Origin: an uncultured Bacteroidia bacterium
GTDB taxonomy: Bacteria > Bacteroidota > Bacteroidia > Bacteroidales > UBA932
Direction of reading: 5' to 3'
Assembly: GCA_902774155.1 (NCBI GenBank)
Contig: CACYHF010000008.1
Coordinates: 23,249-87,248 of the forward strand
DNA: 64,000 bases
In this document: one piece after another, positions 46,390 to 56,271 of the stretch
Layout of the letters: each line of letters begins with the position of its first letter
How positions within the stretch are numbered: position 1 is the stretch's first letter
Made by a program: the position numbers and the translations under genes
Notes under the pieces: model-generated
Seen by the model: the letters and a program-made list of their open reading frames with translations, nothing else
Database searches by the model: none
What the model was told of the DNA's origin: nothing

Positions 46390-46424
46390 AGTATTTCAGT
46401 TAATTTGTCTGTTATTAAGTTTTG

Positions 46425-46498
46425 TGATTCCGAAGGGATTCGAACCCTTGACCCACAGCTTAGAAGGCTGTTGCTCTATCCAACTGAGCTACGGAACC
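46425..46498 (-). tRNA. tRNA-Arg (anticodon TCT)
   Basis: 74-nt cloverleaf on the minus strand. Acceptor GGTTCCG pairs with CGGAATC (one G-U), D arm GCTC/GAGC, anticodon stem ACAGC/GCTGT with loop CTTCTAA, T arm AAGGG/CCCTT with TTCGAAT. Discriminator A; CCA is not encoded. It decodes AGA/AGG, rare codons in this GC-rich genome. Confidence 0.96.
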
Positions 46499-49291: not shown

Positions 49292-50440
49292 ATGGAAATC
49301 CAACTGACCCGTCAGGAAGTGCCGGTGCTTCTGCTCACCGGTTATCTGGGAAGCGGCAAAACCACCCTGCTGAACCGCATCCTCTCCAATAAAAAAGGCA
49401 TTAAGTTCGCCGTCATCGTCAACGATATCGGCGAAGTGAATATCGACGAAAGCCTCATTGAAAAAGGCGGCGTGGTGGGCGGCACCGACGACAGCCTGGT
49501 GGCCCTCCAGAACGGCTGCATCTGCTGCACCCTCAAGATGGACCTGGTGGCCCAGCTGGCCGATTTGATAGCGGCCCGGCGCTTCGATTATATCGTGATC
49601 GAGGCCAGCGGCATCTGCGAACCCGCCCCCATCGCCCAGACCATCAGCACGATGCCTGCGCTGGCGCCGCAATATGCCCAGGGCGCCCTTCCGTACGTGG
49701 ATTGCATCTGTACCGTGGTGGACGCCTTGCGAATGAAGGACGAATTCGACAGCGGCTCCGCCCTGGAGAAGGAAGACATCGGCGAAGATGACCTGGAAAG
49801 GCTTGTGATAGAGCAGATTGAGTTCTGCAATATTGTGCTGCTGAATAAGGCTGCAGAGGTGAGCCCGGAGGAACTGGGCAAGCTCAAGGGTATTGTCAAG
49901 AGCATCAACCCCGGGGCCAAGGTGCTCAGCTGCAATTACGGCGACATAGACCTGGACGAGCTTATCTACACCGGGATGTTCCGCTTCGACGAAGTGGCCA
50001 CTTCGGCCGCCTGGATCGCCGCCATCGAGGGCGAGGAAGACGAGGACGAAGAGGCCGAAGGGGAAGCCCTGGAATATGGCATCGACACCTACGTGTACAC
50101 CCGCCGTCCGGCCCTGGACCTGAACAAGTTCGACCATATGGTAGCCACCCGTTGGCCCAAGGAAATCATTCGCGCCAAGGGCCTGTGCTACTTCTCCAAC
50201 GACCCCGACAAGTGCTTCCTGTTTGAGCAGGCCGGAAGGCAGAAGTCCCTGCGCGACTGCGGCCTCTGGTTCGCCACTATGGAACCCGATGAACTGGCCC
50301 AGATGATGGAGCGCGACCGCAAGCTCCGGGCCGATTGGGATCCCCAGTACGGTGACCGTATGCAGAAGATTGTGTTCATCGGCCAGCACCTGGATAAACC
50401 GGCCCTGGAAAAGCTTATGGACAGCTGCCTGGCCGAATAA
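49292..50440 (+). CDS. CobW/ZNG1-family GTP-binding metallochaperone (COG0523)
   Basis: A 382-residue G3E GTPase. Walker A is TGYLGSGKTTLLNR with Lys23; the metal-binding CxCC motif is NGCICCTLK (Cys76, 78, 79); the switch region contains VIEASGICEP and the guanine motif is LLNKAAE rather than NKxD. A Glu/Asp-rich stretch (EGEEDEDEEAEGEAL, about residues 247-261) separates the two domains, perhaps a metal-holding loop. The metal is not evident; family members serve Zn, Co or Fe. It lies 1 nt after the Na/Pi cotransporter. Confidence 0.88.
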   Translation: MEIQLTRQEVPVLLLTGYLGSGKTTLLNRILSNKKGIKFAVIVNDIGEVNIDESLIEKGGVVGGTDDSLVALQNGCICCTLKMDLVAQLADLIAARRFDYIVIEASGICEPAPIAQTISTMPALAPQYAQGALPYVDCICTVVDALRMKDEFDSGSALEKEDIGEDDLERLVIEQIEFCNIVLLNKAAEVSPEELGKLKGIVKSINPGAKVLSCNYGDIDLDELIYTGMFRFDEVATSAAWIAAIEGEEDEDEEAEGEALEYGIDTYVYTRRPALDLNKFDHMVATRWPKEIIRAKGLCYFSNDPDKCFLFEQAGRQKSLRDCGLWFATMEPDELAQMMERDRKLRADWDPQYGDRMQKIVFIGQHLDKPALEKLMDSCLAE

Positions 50441-50447
50441 TCTTTTT

Positions 50448-50497
50448 TTTGCAGAATAAGAAAAAGTTCCTATCTTTGCAGTCCCGATTTTTCGGGA
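50448..50497 (+). promoter_or_regulatory. Promoter and 5' hairpin of tRNA-Ser
   Basis: TTTG (50448-50451), 19-nt spacer, TATCTTTG (50471-50478): full consensus. Initiation region CAGTCCCG, then a perfect hairpin TCCCGA (50482-50487), TTTT, TCGGGA (50492-50497) in the short leader. Confidence 0.88.
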
Positions 50498-50505
50498 ATA
50501 AGCCT

Positions 50506-50593
50506 GGAGAGATGCTCGAGTGGCTTAAGAGGCACGCCTGGAAAGCGTGTATACTCCAAAAGGGTATCCCGAGTTCGAATCTCGGTCTCTCCG
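50506..50593 (+). tRNA. tRNA-Ser (anticodon GGA)
   Basis: 88-nt class II tRNA. Acceptor GGAGAGA pairs with TCTCTCC, discriminator G; anticodon stem CACGC/GCGTG with loop CTGGAAA; long variable arm TACTCC...GGGTA; T arm CCGAG TTCGAAT CTCGG. CCA is not encoded. Its last 19 nt and the next two bases are duplicated at 55405-55425. Confidence 0.96.
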
Positions 50594-50595
50594 CA
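50575..50595 (+). repeat. Left copy of 21-nt direct repeat at the tRNA-Ser 3' end (candidate att site)
   Basis: Positions 50575-50595 are identical to 55405-55425. The repeat starts in the T loop (TCGAAT) and ends two bases beyond the discriminator, the usual form of tRNA attachment sites. Confidence 0.8.
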
Positions 50596-50628
50596 AAATG
50601 CCTTCTGCGCTATTGCAGGAGGCATTTT
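50595..50628 (+). terminator. Terminator of tRNA-Ser
   Basis: AAAATGCCTTCTGC (50595-50608) pairs with GCAGGAGGCATTTT (50615-50628), 14 bp with one G-U, ending in TTTT. Confidence 0.88.
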
Positions 50629-50710
50629 CATATAAAAATATCCCAAATAGTATCCCGAAAACAGATTCTTCTCTCCATTTATATTCACTTGAATATAGCT
50701 GGTTTGTCCC

Positions 50711-53700
50711 CTAATGATAATCGAAAATTTCCCGGAGCTCGGCGTCGGAAAGTTTTCCAATCCAGCTTTCCCCTGAAGCTACAGTAAGGTCGGCAAGGGC
50801 TTTCTTTTCCGTTATCATTCTATCTATCTTCTCTTCGAATGTCCCGGCGGTGACAAAGCGGGTGACCATGACGTTTTTATGCTGGCCTATGCGATAGGCG
50901 CGGTCTGTGGCCTGGGCCTCCACGGCCGGGTTCCACCAGAGGTCGAAGTGGATGACATGTGATGCGGCCGTAAGGTTGAGTCCGGTTCCGGCGGCCTTCA
51001 GGGACAAGATAAATACTTGCTCGCTACGGATGTTCTGGAAACGCTCTACCATTTCCGTGCGCTGTTTGAGGGGGCAGCCTCCATGATAGAACAAGGGCTT
51101 GAAACCCAGTTCTTGCTTGAGGATTTGGGAAAGCAAGTCTCCCATTTCCTTGAACTGCGTGAAAATGAGAACTTTCTCGCCGCTTTCCACGATGCTTCCG
51201 ACAAGATCCGCAAGCATGCCGCATTTCCCGGAAAGCGCTGTGTCGGCCTTTCCATCCTTGAGGAAAAGGGATGGATGGTCGCAAATCTGTTTCAGTGCAA
51301 GTATCATTTGCAGAACGATTCCCTGGCGTTTGAACAGGGACTCGTCACCGGCGCCTTCGATCGTTGCCATGTACTCCTGAACGACCTGCTGGTACAAGGC
51401 GGCCTGGGAAGGGGTCAGCACCGGCATGAAGTTGCGCGTAACCTTGTCTGGGAGGTCCGAGATGATGTTTTTGTCGGTCTTCAGGCGTCGCATCATAAAA
51501 GGGGCGGTAACCCTGCGGAACCTCTCGGCGCATGCCTTGTCGCCTTCCTGCTCGATAGGCGCCGCATATTGCTCCCGGAAACGTTTGGCGGTGTCCAGAT
51601 AGCCCTTGTTGGCGAAGTCCATGATACTCCAGTACTCGCTCAGGCGGTTTTCCACCGGAGTGCCGCTCATGGCTATCCTTACTTCTGCAGGAATGGATTT
51701 CACGGCCGATGTCTGGGCGGTGGAGGTGTTCTTGATATTCTGCGCCTCGTCAATGATTACCACTTCCCATTTTGTCTTTCCCAGCACAATGGCGTCGCTT
51801 CTGAGAACTCCGTATGAGGTAAGGAGGATGTCTGCGCCAAAATCTTTGAGATTCCGCCCGGGGCCGTGGTAGCGGAAGTGCGAAAGTGCCGGTGCGAACC
51901 GGTCCAGCTCGGACTCCCAGTTGGCAAGGAGCCCGGTCGGCACCACAACAAGGGCTTTCCTGTTTTCCAGCGCCTCCTCGTCCTTCAGCTTCTGCAAAAG
52001 CGATATGACCTGCAGGGTTTTGCCCAGTCCCATATCGTCGGCAATAATGCACCCGAAGCCCAGGCGGAAGTTCTTGTACATCCATGAATACCCTCTGGCC
52101 TGGTAGGGGCGCAGCTGTGCATTTATTCCCGCCGGAACGGGAATATCCTCTGTAGCGGTAAGCTCTCGGATAAGTTCCCGCACTTCGTCGGAGAGAGAAA
52201 CCTGCGCTCCCTCATACTCCCCGGAGAGGGCTGCCTGAAGAAGCCGCATCTTGCCCGGCCCCTTGGACGATGAAAAAGCCTTCTCCAGGCGCAGGAGATC
52301 GCCCTCGTCTACGCAGAAATACCTGGACTTGAAGCGGATAAGACCCTTCGCGCCTTTGATGAGCCTTGAGAATTCGGCTTCATCTACAAGTTCGTCTCCA
52401 AGGGCAACTGCCCAGTTGAAGTCCAGCAAGTCATCGGCCCGGAAGAAGGATTTTCCTCCGGAGTTTTTTTTGGTTATGCGAAGGCTTGGCCTCGGATGAA
52501 TCAGGGTTTCAAGTCCCTTAGGCAGGATAACCCGGACGGAGAGGAGGCGTACCACGGGAACAATATCCTGGAGGAAGTCAAAAAAGCGGCTGTCCGTCAT
52601 ATCCATCGGCTCTTTTGCTCCGCCGTCCACCCAGGCCGAAGCCCCCGGAACGTGCCTCAGAACCAGACTCAGTTGCTGGAGCATCTTGAAACGGTCTGTC
52701 TCATAAGTTTTCCGTGAAAGGATATTGCGCAGCGCGACCTCCCGCCCTTTTATTTCAAAGCCGAAATCGAGGGTAAAGTCCTCACCGGTATCATTGGCCT
52801 TGAGAAAGGGTTTGTGTCCGCTGCCTGCAATCCTGAATGGCGACAGCCAGGCCTTGATGCTGCCCGGTATCCCTTTTTCGCCGACGCTGTCAAATATACA
52901 AAGACTCCCGCAGAAGAACATGTCGGCCAGGTCATTGTCTTGCGGGAGCACACTCTCCTGGACAAGGATGGTGATGAATGCTTCAAGGATAAGAGGGCCG
53001 GCATTATGTAGCGCCTTCCCTTTTGCATTGACTGCAATCCCGTCTCCAGAAGCTTCTGAAAGTTCTTTTACAAGTGCGGAAACCGTATTATCCATCATGG
53101 CTGGCTCCCAGATGATCTTGTAATTCCCGTCATCTGTTGCCATAATTTTTGGCACAACGCAGCCTTTCAGCACAAGAGAGGTCCCTGCTCGGAAAATGTT
53201 GTACAAAAGAAGGGCCGATGGCTGCATCATGCTGCGGTCCTTGTCTTCCCATTCCCGGAGCGCCTCTATGAGGATGCTGGATTGCAGCCTCCCGGACTTC
53301 TTCCCGGCGTCAAAGACTTCGGCGATGATTTCAAGATCCGGATAGAAGACAATCCTGATGTCTGCCGATGTACGGACAGGGTTAAACTGCAAGCCCTGCG
53401 CTCCTGCTTTGCCAAGAGTGCGCTGCGCTCTGTGAAGGAGTTTCCGATATTTTTCCCGGAACCCTTTTTCGAAGGGCGGATTTTCATCCAGAATATCCGT
53501 GAGTTTGTCGGTAAGGTCGGGCAGTACCGAAAGATCCGGTGCCCAGGGTTTGATATCCGTTGTTTTATCGGCAAGGACAAGCCTGTCCGACGTCTTCTCA
53601 ACGGAGAGGGTCTGGCTGCTGCCCAATTTTATGCCAAGGGATTCAATCTCCGAGGGAATATCCAGTCCGTGCATCCGGAATACCAGAAACGGGTCGTTGT

Positions 53701-54145
53701 CTATCTCCTGGCTCACTTTATAGATGACGGCGGCAAGGTGCTTGCAGGGGACGGCCCAGTCCGGGCAACTGCATTTCATCCCAAGATCTTTCCAACTTGT
53801 CGGGAACACCTTGAGACCGCATTTTACCGCCATCAGCAGCACCTCTTCCGGGAGTTCGTGATTCATAAGGCGGGACAGGATGGCAGGATGGGCCGACAAT
53901 TCCTTCACCAGCTTCCTCTTCCCGTCCTCCGGAAACTGCGGCACTTTTATTTCTATCTTGTAGGGAGAAGGCCTGGAACCCTTTACCCTTGCCTTTATGG
54001 TTCCGTTTTTATCAAACATCACTTCCCGCACGCTGCCGTTACGTGCGTAACGGGCACCGCGTGGTATCCGATTCGCGAAATCGATATGGGTGAGCGAGTC
54101 CAGCCAACGCTGTCCCCACCAAGTGAGTCCGAAGTCTTTGGGCAT
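50711..54145 (-). CDS. SNF2-family helicase with N-terminal SWIM zinc finger
   Basis: A 1144-residue DNA-dependent ATPase. The SWIM finger is CSCPDWAVPCKH (Cys125, Cys127, Cys134, His136); residues about 200-640 are a variable middle region; the C-terminal half is a complete Swi2/Snf2 motor with Walker A DDMGLGKTLQV (Lys709), DEAQ box IIDEAQNIKN (Asp799), SGTPVENRLSEYWSIMDF, VLIFTQFKEM, and motif VI AQATDRAYRIGQ. All motor motifs are intact. SNF2 proteins occur in housekeeping and in phage-defence systems such as DISARM; no DISARM partner is here. It is the main cargo of the tRNA-Ser island, has its own promoter and may be a solitary defence gene (inference). Confidence 0.9.
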   Translation of the reverse strand: MPKDFGLTWWGQRWLDSLTHIDFANRIPRGARYARNGSVREVMFDKNGTIKARVKGSRPSPYKIEIKVPQFPEDGKRKLVKELSAHPAILSRLMNHELPEEVLLMAVKCGLKVFPTSWKDLGMKCSCPDWAVPCKHLAAVIYKVSQEIDNDPFLVFRMHGLDIPSEIESLGIKLGSSQTLSVEKTSDRLVLADKTTDIKPWAPDLSVLPDLTDKLTDILDENPPFEKGFREKYRKLLHRAQRTLGKAGAQGLQFNPVRTSADIRIVFYPDLEIIAEVFDAGKKSGRLQSSILIEALREWEDKDRSMMQPSALLLYNIFRAGTSLVLKGCVVPKIMATDDGNYKIIWEPAMMDNTVSALVKELSEASGDGIAVNAKGKALHNAGPLILEAFITILVQESVLPQDNDLADMFFCGSLCIFDSVGEKGIPGSIKAWLSPFRIAGSGHKPFLKANDTGEDFTLDFGFEIKGREVALRNILSRKTYETDRFKMLQQLSLVLRHVPGASAWVDGGAKEPMDMTDSRFFDFLQDIVPVVRLLSVRVILPKGLETLIHPRPSLRITKKNSGGKSFFRADDLLDFNWAVALGDELVDEAEFSRLIKGAKGLIRFKSRYFCVDEGDLLRLEKAFSSSKGPGKMRLLQAALSGEYEGAQVSLSDEVRELIRELTATEDIPVPAGINAQLRPYQARGYSWMYKNFRLGFGCIIADDMGLGKTLQVISLLQKLKDEEALENRKALVVVPTGLLANWESELDRFAPALSHFRYHGPGRNLKDFGADILLTSYGVLRSDAIVLGKTKWEVVIIDEAQNIKNTSTAQTSAVKSIPAEVRIAMSGTPVENRLSEYWSIMDFANKGYLDTAKRFREQYAAPIEQEGDKACAERFRRVTAPFMMRRLKTDKNIISDLPDKVTRNFMPVLTPSQAALYQQVVQEYMATIEGAGDESLFKRQGIVLQMILALKQICDHPSLFLKDGKADTALSGKCGMLADLVGSIVESGEKVLIFTQFKEMGDLLSQILKQELGFKPLFYHGGCPLKQRTEMVERFQNIRSEQVFILSLKAAGTGLNLTAASHVIHFDLWWNPAVEAQATDRAYRIGQHKNVMVTRFVTAGTFEEKIDRMITEKKALADLTVASGESWIGKLSDAELREIFDYH

Positions 54146-54172
54146 GGCGGAATCTTTCAGTAGTAGTCAGGG

Positions 54173-54193
54173 CAAAGATACCGCTTATCTTTG
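54173..54193. promoter_or_regulatory. Divergent minus-7 boxes for the SNF2 gene (minus) and the lipoprotein fragment (plus)
   Basis: TATCTTTG on the minus strand at 54173-54180 and TATCTTTG on the plus strand at 54186-54193, 5 nt apart, forming a near-perfect palindrome. The minus one reads to the SNF2 ATG 27 nt away. On the plus strand the first ATG (54208) opens only a 19-codon frame. Confidence 0.7.
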
Positions 54194-54236
54194 AATTATC
54201 ACGTTTTATGGGTATTTTCGCGGAAAATCATATCAT

Positions 54237-54446
54237 ATGCATCGACAGTTCACATTATATTTTTTAATTCCCATCATCATTCTTGGCTCATGTGGGACGA
54301 ACCGGACGAAAGAATTACTTGTAAACGTTGCTTCGTATCTACAAGATTACCCAGACAGCGCCCTTAGGGTTTTGAATTCTATAGACACACTGGCTCTATA
54401 TACAAAATCAGACAAGACTGTCAGCCTAATGGGATCCGATATTTAG
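54237..54446 (+). pseudogene. Truncated lipoprotein with TPR-like start
   Basis: A 69-codon frame with a lipoprotein signal (IPIIILGSC, Cys19) followed by VASYLQDYPDSALRVLNSID. That resembles the beginning of Bacteroidota TPR lipoproteins and HTH regulators, which normally run on for several hundred residues. Here it stops after LMGSDI, 6 nt before the next ATG. I read it as a 5' fragment left by recombination. A real small lipoprotein cannot be excluded. The base composition is AT-rich relative to flanks. Confidence 0.5.
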
Positions 54447-54452
54447 AAAAAT

Positions 54453-55322
54453 ATGCATATATTTGCAGATGTGAATAGGCGTAACCATATCATCCAGAAT
54501 TCCAAAGATAAATTGGATGGATTGAACCAGGAAATCTGGGACAATGGTTTTACCACAAATACATTAAGCCGTTTATCGGCAATTGCAAAGGAGGTATACA
54601 ATGGCACCACGGTATTTGAACGAATTCCACAAGCGCAACAGCCAGGCTTGTCAAAGGGCTCTGCGCTCCTCTGCGCGGCGGCCATTATCTGTAGAGGCTG
54701 TCCTGGAACAGAGTCGGAAGCAAGGGAGATCTACCGCACGGACGATCTCATCGGCGAAGGACGCGTTCAGGAAGCGCTCGTAGAAGAATGGGCCCGCATC
54801 GTAGGATGCTGGTTTGATGAGGCACGTCTCTACCTTTCTTCGATATCCCAGGCATACGACATGGGAACAGAGAGTACGGTCTTCTTCGACACAGAGAATA
54901 GGCTTGTAAGAAAGTTCATAACGCTGAAGCATTATAACGTCCTTCGCCTCGCGCTTGACAGGATAATCATTCATAATGCAATCTTCCCAAATGCCTATAT
55001 GAAGGTAATAGGCTTTGGAAAGGACGAGGATAGTCAGTTTGGTGTTTTGATAGAACAGCCATACATCGAAGGAATCAAAGTCTCCGAAGAGGAACGCGCA
55101 GAATTCATGCACAAACTTGGTTTTGAAGACGCCGGTGAAGACTTTGGTATGCGCCTCAACTACAAAACACAGGATCTTTACATTGGAGACCTCAACGAGT
55201 ACAATGTTTTAAAGCATGACAATGGGGCAATCTTTGTGTTTGACTGTGACTGCCGATTGAATGTTCCTACCCTGGGTTATGGAGGAACATGGAAAATACA
55301 ACCGCCTGCGGTGAAATTTTAA
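54453..55322 (+). CDS. Protein-kinase-fold protein similar to kinases of mobile-element polyvalent proteins
   Basis: A 289-residue protein whose C-terminal half has the spacing of a protein kinase: candidate ATP-binding Lys154 (NRLVRKF), catalytic Asp246 and Asn251 in IGDLNEYNVL (D+5=N), and metal-binding Asp264 in FVFDCDC (N+13=D), the same spacing as in canonical kinases. Residues about 1-120 are helical and unrecognised. The combination resembles the Ser/Thr/Tyr kinase domain embedded in phage and conjugative-element polyvalent proteins. A minus-7 box (54458-54465) lies just after the ATG at 54453, so GTG 54471 may be the true start. It may be a detached domain of a longer mobile protein. 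AT-rich, last gene before the right repeat. Confidence 0.55.
   Translation: MHIFADVNRRNHIIQNSKDKLDGLNQEIWDNGFTTNTLSRLSAIAKEVYNGTTVFERIPQAQQPGLSKGSALLCAAAIICRGCPGTESEAREIYRTDDLIGEGRVQEALVEEWARIVGCWFDEARLYLSSISQAYDMGTESTVFFDTENRLVRKFITLKHYNVLRLALDRIIIHNAIFPNAYMKVIGFGKDEDSQFGVLIEQPYIEGIKVSEEERAEFMHKLGFEDAGEDFGMRLNYKTQDLYIGDLNEYNVLKHDNGAIFVFDCDCRLNVPTLGYGGTWKIQPPAVKF
54458..54465 (+). promoter_or_regulatory. Minus-7 element overlapping the start of the kinase-like gene
   Basis: TATATTTG followed by CAG. It ends 5 nt before the in-frame GTG at 54471, the same short gap as at other genes here. Confidence 0.45.
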
Positions 55323-55327
55323 GATTT

Positions 55328-55349
55328 ACCCGCAAATAACCCGCAAGTA
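55328..55349. repeat. Tandem 11-nt repeats near the right island end
   Basis: ACCCGCAAATA (55328-55338) and ACCCGCAAGTA (55339-55349), one mismatch. Possible arm-type recombinase sites. Confidence 0.5.
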
Positions 55350-55394
55350 AGACATAAATAATAGCGTAGAACCCTCTAGAATAGACTTTTTGAG

Positions 55395-55425
55395 ACGCCT
55401 GGAATCGAATCTCGGTCTCTCCGCA
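55395..55425 (+). repeat. Right copy of the tRNA-Ser repeat, joined to a piece of the anticodon arm
   Basis: 55405-55425 equals 50575-50595. The ten bases before it, ACGCCTGGAA, equal 50534-50543 in the anticodon arm. So the right end looks like a tRNA-Ser gene with 31 internal bases (50544-50574) removed. It cannot fold as a tRNA. Confidence 0.75.
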
Positions 55426-55433
55426 TAAAATTT

Positions 55434-55465
55434 GAGACTCCGGTGCTTCCCAGCAACGGAGTCTC
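55434..55465. terminator. Hairpin beyond the right island end
   Basis: GAGACTCCG (55434-55442) and CGGAGTCTC (55457-55465), perfect 9-bp stem, 14-nt loop, no strong T-run. It lies where a tRNA terminator would be expected and may be the original tRNA-Ser terminator displaced by the insertion. Confidence 0.55.
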
Positions 55466-55500
55466 TCATTCTAACCTAAAAACTTAACCTATTAAAAAAA

Positions 55501-56250
55501 CTATTCGGTTTTTTCTTCTGCGAATTTCGTGCCAGAAAGTTCGTTCTGGCGTTCAATTTCGTTAAGTTCCGGGTTGGGGCGGATGGAAAGGATGCGGACA
55601 TCGGCCATGGGGCGGTCCCGGCGGTCTGTGGCCACGGCGGCAATCTTGTCAATCACGTTGAGTCCGGCAACGGTTTCGCCGAAGACGGTATACTCGCCGT
55701 CCAGGTGCACGCAGTGGTCCGGATCCTGCACCAGATAGAACTGCGAGCCCGACGAGGCCTTGAACGGATTGGCCATATCTCCCACGCGGGCGGCGGCCAG
55801 TGCCCCTTTCTTATGCCGATGGAGCGGTTGCCCGTCGGCATCCCGCATTTCGGCCGGAATGGTATATTTGGGTCCGCCTTCCCCGTATTGGGCCACCAGG
55901 GCGGTGTCTTTGGTGAAGGGGTCTCCGCCCTGGATCATGAAACCGTTGATGACGCGGTGGAACAGCGTGCTGTCGTAATAGCCGGACAGGGCCAGTTTCT
56001 CAAAGTTGTCCCGGTGGCGGGGCGTGTCCTTGTACAGCTTGACGCGGATGGTGCCCATATTGGTGACAATGTCGAAGACGGGCTCTTCCGGGAGGGCTTC
56101 CGCGGCCTTTTTGGCGGCCAGGGTATCGGTGGGCTCCACCGTCAGTTCAATCTCTTCCGGAGCGGCATCGGCCGCTTCCTTTCCTTTGTTGCGGTTTTTG
56201 CAGCCGGCCAGCACGGCCAGGGCTATAAACAGGTACAGATACTTCTTCAT
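55501..56250 (-). CDS. Cyclophilin-type peptidyl-prolyl isomerase, lipoprotein
   Basis: A 249-residue periplasmic foldase anchored as a lipoprotein (signal ending LAGC, Cys17). After a Glu/Ala-rich linker the cyclophilin domain begins at FDIVTNMGTIRVKLY; catalytic and binding residues lie in STLFHRVINGFMIQGGDP and NPFKASSGSQFYLV. The usual cyclophilin Trp is replaced by His in DPDHCVHLDGEYTVFGE, common in bacterial forms. The gene is monocistronic, and its minus-7 box is back to back with that of the flippase gene. Confidence 0.93.
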   Translation of the reverse strand: MKKYLYLFIALAVLAGCKNRNKGKEAADAAPEEIELTVEPTDTLAAKKAAEALPEEPVFDIVTNMGTIRVKLYKDTPRHRDNFEKLALSGYYDSTLFHRVINGFMIQGGDPFTKDTALVAQYGEGGPKYTIPAEMRDADGQPLHRHKKGALAAARVGDMANPFKASSGSQFYLVQDPDHCVHLDGEYTVFGETVAGLNVIDKIAAVATDRRDRPMADVRILSIRPNPELNEIERQNELSGTKFAEEKTE

Positions 56251-56271
56251 AAGAATATTTCTTTCTCACCG

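Follow-up and report, generated by a model that had tools for sequence, protein, structure and literature searches.

We analyzed a 64,000-nt window of the genome of an uncultured Bacteroidia bacterium (order Bacteroidales, UBA932; assembly GCA_902774155.1, contig CACYHF010000008.1, positions 23,249 to 87,248 of the forward strand), which lies on contig C8 of a 2.43-Mb genome in 88 contigs, and focused on a small island next to a serine tRNA gene that carries one gene for a SWIM-SNF2 helicase and one for a polyvalent-type kinase. The target gene, an intact tRNA-Ser(GGA) identified by ARAGORN, occupies 50506–50594 on the forward strand. Its 3′ end plus one base forms the left copy (50575–50595, forward strand, attL side) of a 21-mer, TCGAATCTCGGTCTCTCCGCA, that recurs exactly at 55405–55425, so that ARAGORN and exact matching bear out the repeat on which the original prediction of a tRNA-bounded island was built. 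This is the only pair of exact same-strand 21-mer repeats in the window, and 0 of 20 first-order Markov simulations yielded any. The right copy includes more of the tRNA than had been noticed: directly 5′ of it lies ACGCCTGGAA, which corresponds to the anticodon arm and is found elsewhere in the window only within the tRNA gene. Together, these two pieces (55395–55425, forward strand, attR side) are collinear with tRNA-Ser, with 31 nt of the tRNA absent between them. By its sequence, the right copy is thus a shrunken tRNA-Ser fragment, i.e., an eroded attR, rather than the unrelated tandem tRNA remnant that would have spoken against an island.

Next, we used the right flank as a DNA query against 400 congeneric genomes, the closest of which was G248 (91%). 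This genome matches 49292–50594 (the cobW gene and tRNA-Ser) at 90.5% and 55427–56253 at 90.9% identity, with the breaks in homology falling where the tRNA and the right 21-mer end, and between the matching flanks lie 417 bp of unrelated DNA with nothing of the island. Because the matches to G248 leave off at 50594 and begin again at 55427, we conclude from this comparison that 50595–55425 is inserted DNA of ~4.8 kb. The original prediction had also anticipated an empty site joining the tRNA directly to the sequence after 55425. The absence of the island held true, but a clean empty site was not found among the 400 genomes searched with the right flank.

The margins of the island differ from each other. 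On the left, a terminator-like hairpin with a short T run (inverted repeat, 50595–50628, forward strand) immediately follows the tRNA, and the margin at 50595–50662 (forward strand) shares 82.6% identity with the left end of an element in G061 (blastn, 69 columns), with similar ends also found in G334. Two TATCCC copies 12 nt apart (50639–50656, forward strand) resemble integrase arm sites, and the same motif occurs at the integrase ends of elements in G061 and G019. On the right, the tandem ACCCGCAAATA / ACCCGCAAGTA (55328–55349, forward strand) is likewise arm-site-like, with a similar motif at the right ends of a kinase insert in G157 and a cassette in G106. The short tandem repeats predicted just inside both ends are therefore real, as is the AT-richer right part, with a GC content of 0.44 in 54231–55425 vs 0.53 in 50595–54230 and 0.57 in the whole window. 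Between the two genes, 54151–54313 is 98.8% identical to the G106 locus L106 as far as that contig’s end, and a 69-amino-acid open reading frame (ORF) with a lipoprotein-like N-terminus (54237–54446, forward strand; Pfam match only sub-cut-off) probably represents a truncated gene in the junction zone of two modules. Consistent with the original prediction, no integrase was seen in the island, nor were any transfer genes, when ORFs of at least 60 amino acids were read by eye and only the three sense ORFs were compared with Pfam. The first host sequence past the island is a terminator-like hairpin at 55426–55473 (forward strand), within which G248 homology restarts at 55427; on the other side, a tRNA-Arg(TCT) gene lies 4 kb left of the island (window positions 46424–46498).

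Both predicted gene products were confirmed by their Pfam domains. The larger gene (50711–54145, reverse strand) encodes a 1144-amino-acid helicase/translocase with SWIM, DUF3670, SNF2-rel and Helicase_C domains and intact motifs, preceded by TATCTTTGC (54172–54180, reverse strand), which we read as a Bacteroidetes-type −7 box with a presumed promoter role. Its best solved relative is PDB 1z63, a “helicase of the snf2/rad54 family” that we take to be SsoRad54 (E 1.1e-127, residues 670–1142), and its closest named relatives come from metagenome-assembled genomes (MAGs) of rumen and gut Bacteroidales. Ratios of non-synonymous to synonymous substitution rates (dN/dS), obtained as a simple Nei-Gojobori count with our own script, were 0.11 against G106 (dS 0.33) and 0.07 against G019 (dS 1.5, near saturation), indicating that the gene is under purifying selection. 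A close SNF2 gene (E ≤ 1e-100) was present in only 12 of the 400 congeneric genomes. Since the SNF2 module is 91.4% identical to that of G106 at the DNA level over 3675 bp, while the cyclophilin region of the same genome reaches only 67%, the gene was probably transferred horizontally between species. In G106, a PIN gene and 45 bp that exactly match part of tRNA-Ser precede the module (PIN_3 gene and fragment at L106 1–600, G106:C95); this locus is without 68 bp of the margin seen in the window, possibly lost between GTATCCCGA repeats. In G019 (L088 1776–15231), an SNF2 gene at 82% identity is found among integrase, Schlafen-AlbA_2/ATPase and DUF3853 genes, with a relaxase ~7 kb off, and the region adjoins another tRNA-like 3′ end; the SNF2 surroundings in G277 (L116) look similar by eye. 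The protein also matches 12 PHROGs, the top one being phrog_29996 (function not known, E 7e-262), and 1130 phage records, all at <60% identity (best Wolbachia phage WO, 34.5%). These matches do not make the island a phage, but they tell against a purely cellular SNF2 gene. As SNF2 relatives are common in phages, the protein may have a putative role in conflict on its own.

The smaller gene (54471–55322, forward strand) encodes a stand-alone Kinase-PolyVal protein, identified with Pfam and an alignment, whose likely start is a GTG at 54471 (the longest ORF begins at 54453). It scores 101.6 bits against Kinase-PolyVal PF18762 (cut-off 27) and keeps the D..N and D motifs as DLNEYN and FDCD in the alignment, motifs to which we assign their presumed roles in the kinase. 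Three nucleotides 5′ of the likely GTG, TATATTTGCA (54458–54467, forward strand) forms a candidate −7-like box with the same spacing as in G157. Matches at E 0.001 or better were found in 5 of 61 genomes, including this one; relatives in G157, G106 and G007 are 57–78% identical, and a shorter one in G079 is 73% identical. The dN/dS ratio against G157 was 0.12, at a dS near saturation (1.5). In G157, a PolyVal kinase occurs alone at the same tRNA-Ser site, and 54534–55398 is 74.7% identical to this one-gene insert, arms included. No PHROG matched the kinase, nor did any of the phage records searched.

We then evaluated how the same tRNA end is occupied elsewhere, by searching the 400 genomes for the 18-mer GAATCTCGGTCTCTCCGC. 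An exact match was required, and 340 genomes had none. Overall, the 18-mer was found in 60 genomes, 17 of which (this one included) had two or more copies on the same contig and strand, separated by 82–201 bp in 10 cases and by >1 kb in the remaining 7. The latter comprise G204 (2.5 kb), G349 (1.5 kb), G113 (2.4 kb), G106 (four copies at 1.0–1.3 kb), G157 (1.2 kb), G061 (43.1 kb) and the island itself (4.8 kb). Their contents, called with a greedy ORF caller and read by eye except where Pfam is named, include two DUF3990 genes, one DUF3791 gene, one small unmatched partner and RhuM in G106; RelB and a PIN protein together with a 123-amino-acid integrase fragment (Arm-DNA-bind_5) in G349; and, by eye, ATPases in G113 and G204. 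The four G106 copies lie at L234 6151–9773 (G106:C22), with no integrase recognized between them by eye. Unless Pfam is named, the gene contents given for the SNF2 loci of G019, G277, G167 and G140, the integrase loci of G349 and G313, the C43 element and the G106 kinase locus were likewise obtained with the greedy caller and by eye.

Two kinds of integrase are associated with these sites. In G061, the second tRNA 3′ copy, 43.1 kb away, has an integrase beside it that is 62% identical to the integrase of G019, for which Pfam matches were obtained; TATCCC repeats occur at the integrase ends of both elements, and we refer to these integrases, 60–62% identical to each other, as type A. A further type A integrase (58–62%) sits on contig C43 of the island’s own genome beside a copy of a tRNA-Ser(TGA)-like 3′ end, making this element a possible source of integrase in trans. 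The C43 element (L318 3302–6285) also includes a DUF3853-like gene, by eye, and its tRNA-Ser(TGA)-like 3′ end is partial. Copies of tRNA-Ser that start in the anticodon arm, as at the right end of the island, are found in G349 and G313 as well, and we refer to the associated integrases as type B. The G313 copy lies beside a complete recombinase-like gene with SAM_5 and Arm-DNA-bind_5 over their cut-offs and PF00589 below, and the G349 copy beside an integrase-like gene with SAM_5 in which PF00589 was not found, i.e., both calls are based on domains other than an above-cut-off PF00589. The right boundary of the island thus fits an anticodon-arm-cutting integrase of putative type B, while the left margin fits the other type. 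With integrase-bearing elements at tRNA-Ser in G061 and G349 and the absence of the island from the same-flank genome G248, the original view of a tRNA-bounded island of the tyrosine-recombinase type was upheld.

Taken together, the island probably represents a decayed integrative element of composite origin, similar to a cis-mobilizable element (CIME), at an additive hotspot formed by the 3′ end of tRNA-Ser(GGA). It is read as composite because its left and right ends resemble the ends of different integrase-bearing elements. From these ends, we infer an order of events in which at least two elements would have entered in tandem: a type A element, with TATCCC arms and an integrase of the G061 and G019 kind, would have brought SNF2, and a type B element, with ACCCGCAAATA-type arms and cutting in the anticodon arm of the tRNA, would have brought the kinase. 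A deletion would then have taken out the middle, including the integrases and part of the lipoprotein gene, and joined the SNF2 and kinase modules, with its end between about 54313 and 54457, while the tRNA fragment at attR shrank. The island can probably no longer move, except through the accretion of an incoming element at its att sites. From what is known of the families, the SNF2 protein would most likely act alone as an ATP-driven double-stranded DNA translocase of the SWIM-associated, SsoRad54-like kind, and the kinase would most likely phosphorylate a host protein as selfish or addiction-type cargo. Several points weigh against this scenario. The match of ACGCCTGGAA to the tRNA is short, with 7 of 4973 random 25-mers reaching an equal score; the TATCCC and ACCCGCAAATA motifs were named as arm sites from their position; outside the kinase gene, the right-margin match to G157 is weak when taken alone (73 nt, 75%, E 1e-4); and G248 offers other DNA instead of a clean empty site. 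In addition, the case for horizontal transfer involves a single core-gene comparison, and the G106 contig with SNF2 (4.2 kb) is unlinked to that with tRNA-Ser, so that MAG mixing is possible.

The original prediction went further and proposed a defense or satellite-type island, immobile or mobilized in trans. We considered a rival explanation of this kind, in which SNF2 and kinase would cooperate on a dedicated two-gene island mobilized in trans. In its favor, both genes seem intact and are divergent, each with its own −7-like box; the motor region of SNF2 resembles ZorD, DpdE and DrmD, and its relatives are common in phages; PolyVal kinases are known from conflict systems, according to passages of PMC5512222; and a type A integrase is available on C43. 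However, the kinase was detected in only 2 of the 12 SNF2-bearing genomes and next to SNF2 in this genome alone. Across the 17 genomes searched, which include these 12, kinases were found in G000, G106, G157 and G334 (the last at 31%), and the one in G106 is on a separate contig with no SNF2 around. With SNF2 and kinase adjacent in 1 of 12 SNF2-bearing genomes, a joint defense system is therefore unsupported, and we rejected such a unit on these co-occurrence counts. The G157 insert, a kinase without SNF2, and the different arm motifs at the two island ends likewise argue for separate cargoes. In a survey of SNF2 neighbors at 79 loci from a named collection (80 of 185 relatives kept), no PolyVal-kinase-like family was seen by eye among the 11 neighbor clusters present in at least 3 loci, and the largest cluster, ABC transporters by eye, spans 9 of the 79. 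No multi-gene defense system was recognized either: the 25 of 39 PADLOC matches that were listed all fall within the SNF2 motor region. Membership in Zorya, Dpd, DISARM or BREX was set aside, as the listed PADLOC matches reflect the common SNF2 motor and 15 of 15 NCBIfam matches are sub-cut-off, including ZorD with 295.9 bits for a cut-off of 1500. Zorya type I is defined by a ZorD with an Mrr-like nuclease part and by ZorA–C partners, whereas here the PADLOC ZorD matches cover the motor only (residues ~660–1125) and the island has two genes; ZorA–C were not searched genome-wide. A satellite phage was rejected as well, the kinase having neither a PHROG nor a match in the phage records searched. 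Overall, we regard a cooperating SNF2-kinase island as quite improbable.

A different mobile scenario, which we consider unlikely though somewhat less so, is that tyrosine recombinases acting in trans continue to shuffle small att-bounded inserts at tRNA-Ser in an integron-like manner, with toxin-antitoxin-like pairs, PIN, kinase and SNF2 genes as inserts, and that the island is one or two such cassettes and no wreck. The four-copy array of G106 would fit a live array of this kind, as would the stretch before the last of these copies, which is nearly the same in G113, and PIN proteins that are 84–92% identical in the G349 insert, 3′ of the tRNA-Ser of G062 and beside SNF2 in G106. Yet the 123-amino-acid integrase fragment in the G349 cassette shows the decay of ordinary elements, and accretion and deletion account for arrays without a special system; an excised cassette was not seen either, though no reads were at hand for this. 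We give very little credence to the converse idea that there is no island, i.e., that SNF2 and kinase have long been resident and that the right 21-mer arose by chance or from a tandem tRNA. Chromosomal SNF2 genes with no integrase recognized nearby by eye, e.g., in G167 and G140, would be in line with it, but the DNA is missing between the matching G248 flanks, the 21-mer is the sole repeat of its kind in the window, and the rarity of close SNF2 genes (12 of 400 genomes) is at odds with a conserved SNF2-kinase synteny. The island illustrates, clearly and on a small scale, accretion and decay at a tRNA hotspot. It is ordinary in kind but has unusually minimal cargo, and it shows that SNF2 and PolyVal-kinase genes travel separately as cargo while under purifying selection. 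It also raises a testable question: through which benefit does selection retain a lone SWIM-SNF2 protein in mobile DNA?

Closely spaced GAATCTCGGTCTCTCCGC copies revealed a second type of sequence. By eye, 8 of the 10 close pairs enclose a structured, covarying element of ~190 nt (exceptions G380 and G101; G365 only in part), whose tail hairpin repeats the 3′ end of its own tRNA. Loci of this element (L091 2186–2365, L090 4844–5032, L319, L320, L321 and L324–L373, from congeners and order-level genomes) lie directly 3′ of tRNA genes. Because RNAalifold on alignment A2 gave inner hairpins only, the structure for A3 was voted from single-sequence folds. Among 16 chosen sequences, both sides had changed in 44 of 70 pairs, compared to 26.8 in shuffles (0 of 500 as high) and 13–25 in slid versions, although a structure voted from folds of the same sequences is favored in this test. 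Further pair types were weaker (86 vs 76, 3 of 500 shuffles), and the outer stem pairs in just 62–69% of cells. The resulting model R1 matched 91 of 151 congeneric genomes and, at the level of the order, 16 of 198 (1 of these 16 again congeneric), with no match in the island’s own genome. Among the best 50 matches (30 + 20), 42 loci had a same-strand ARAGORN tRNA ending between 8 nt before and 5 nt after the element start, covering Ser of four kinds, Ala, Gly, Gln, Pro, Asp, Arg and Met; the other 8 were contig ends, tRNA-like remnants or ambiguous.

At these 42 loci, exact sharing between the element tail and the final 20 nt of its own tRNA averaged 9.7 nt, compared to 6.0 nt with shuffled partners (maximum 6.9 in 300). 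The T-stem 6-mer of the tRNA was found in the own element tail in 24 of 35 cases (5.7 when shuffled, at most 11), and the 5′ arm contained its reverse complement in 17 of 35 (5.4 when shuffled, at most 11); these two counts leave out 7 loci without the motif. Since tRNA and element are both shared among related sequences, the shuffles do not amount to probabilities. In G157, the kinase insert (L238 3573–4659, G157:C34) is flanked, by eye, by two identical 59-nt copies of the element’s tail, i.e., its borders are element-tail copies and go beyond the tRNA end. A scan of 26 loci against Rfam gave gathering-score matches for tRNAs and cobalamin-type riboswitches only, and none at the element itself. 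No comparable tRNA-following element was recognized among the papers listed by literature searches or in passages of PMC2864571 and PMC4755523. The passages of PMC4755523 include PINSR, a 188-bp repeat of Prevotella intermedia dispersed in intergenic regions, which was set aside as the identity of the element by that description alone. We tentatively suggest, as a possibility that we hold to be doubtful for now, that the element, which would be gene-less, is a miniature tRNA-targeting element or tRNA mimic serving as a landing pad for small cargoes, and tRNA-Ser a cassette-capture locus without a resident integrase. If true, a tRNA-following element carrying the 3′ end of its own tRNA would be a new kind of tRNA-associated RNA/DNA element and would outweigh the island in importance.

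Both cargo proteins of the island have known counterparts. SsoRad54 is named among SWIM-associated SWI2/SNF2 ATPases in passages of PMC5512222, and the island protein resembles these in having SWIM, DUF3670, SNF2 and helicase C domains with intact motifs and 1z63 as its nearest structure. Unlike the SsoRad54 kind, it fuses SWIM, DUF3670 and motor in one 1144-amino-acid protein, of which 1z63 matches the motor only. Stand-alone Kinase-PolyVal proteins occur in Bacteroidetes according to the same passages, and the island kinase, which matches PF18762 above the curated cut-off, is similar to them; here, it is cargo at a tRNA-Ser gene, with no fusion in a polyvalent protein and no phage-record match. 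As for the island itself, an integrase of its own, expected for an integrative and mobilizable or integrative and conjugative element (IME or ICE), was not seen among the ORFs and Pfam matches considered above, nor within the same scope was the tyrosine recombinase of a Tycheposon as outlined in passages of PMC10872708. The closest parallel is the CIME, described in the relevant passages of PMC5704250 as a decayed ICE or IME keeping attL and attR. The island likewise has tRNA 3′-end repeats at both borders, with the tRNA regenerated at one end and a fragment at the other, shows no integrase or transfer genes in that scope, shares its site with integrase-bearing elements, and the site is differently occupied in G248; unlike a typical CIME, it holds two cargo genes only and has ends seemingly derived from different elements. 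Passages of PMC10872708 also describe additive flexible genomic islands in which tRNA 3′ ends are repeated, for instance at tRNA-Lys in Ca. Methylopumilus, and there as here variable small gene sets are surrounded by repeats of a tRNA gene’s final ~20 nt. In contrast to what these passages describe, the target here is tRNA-Ser(GGA), the hosts are Bacteroidales, and the cargo consists of toxin-antitoxin-like, kinase, ATPase and SNF2 genes.

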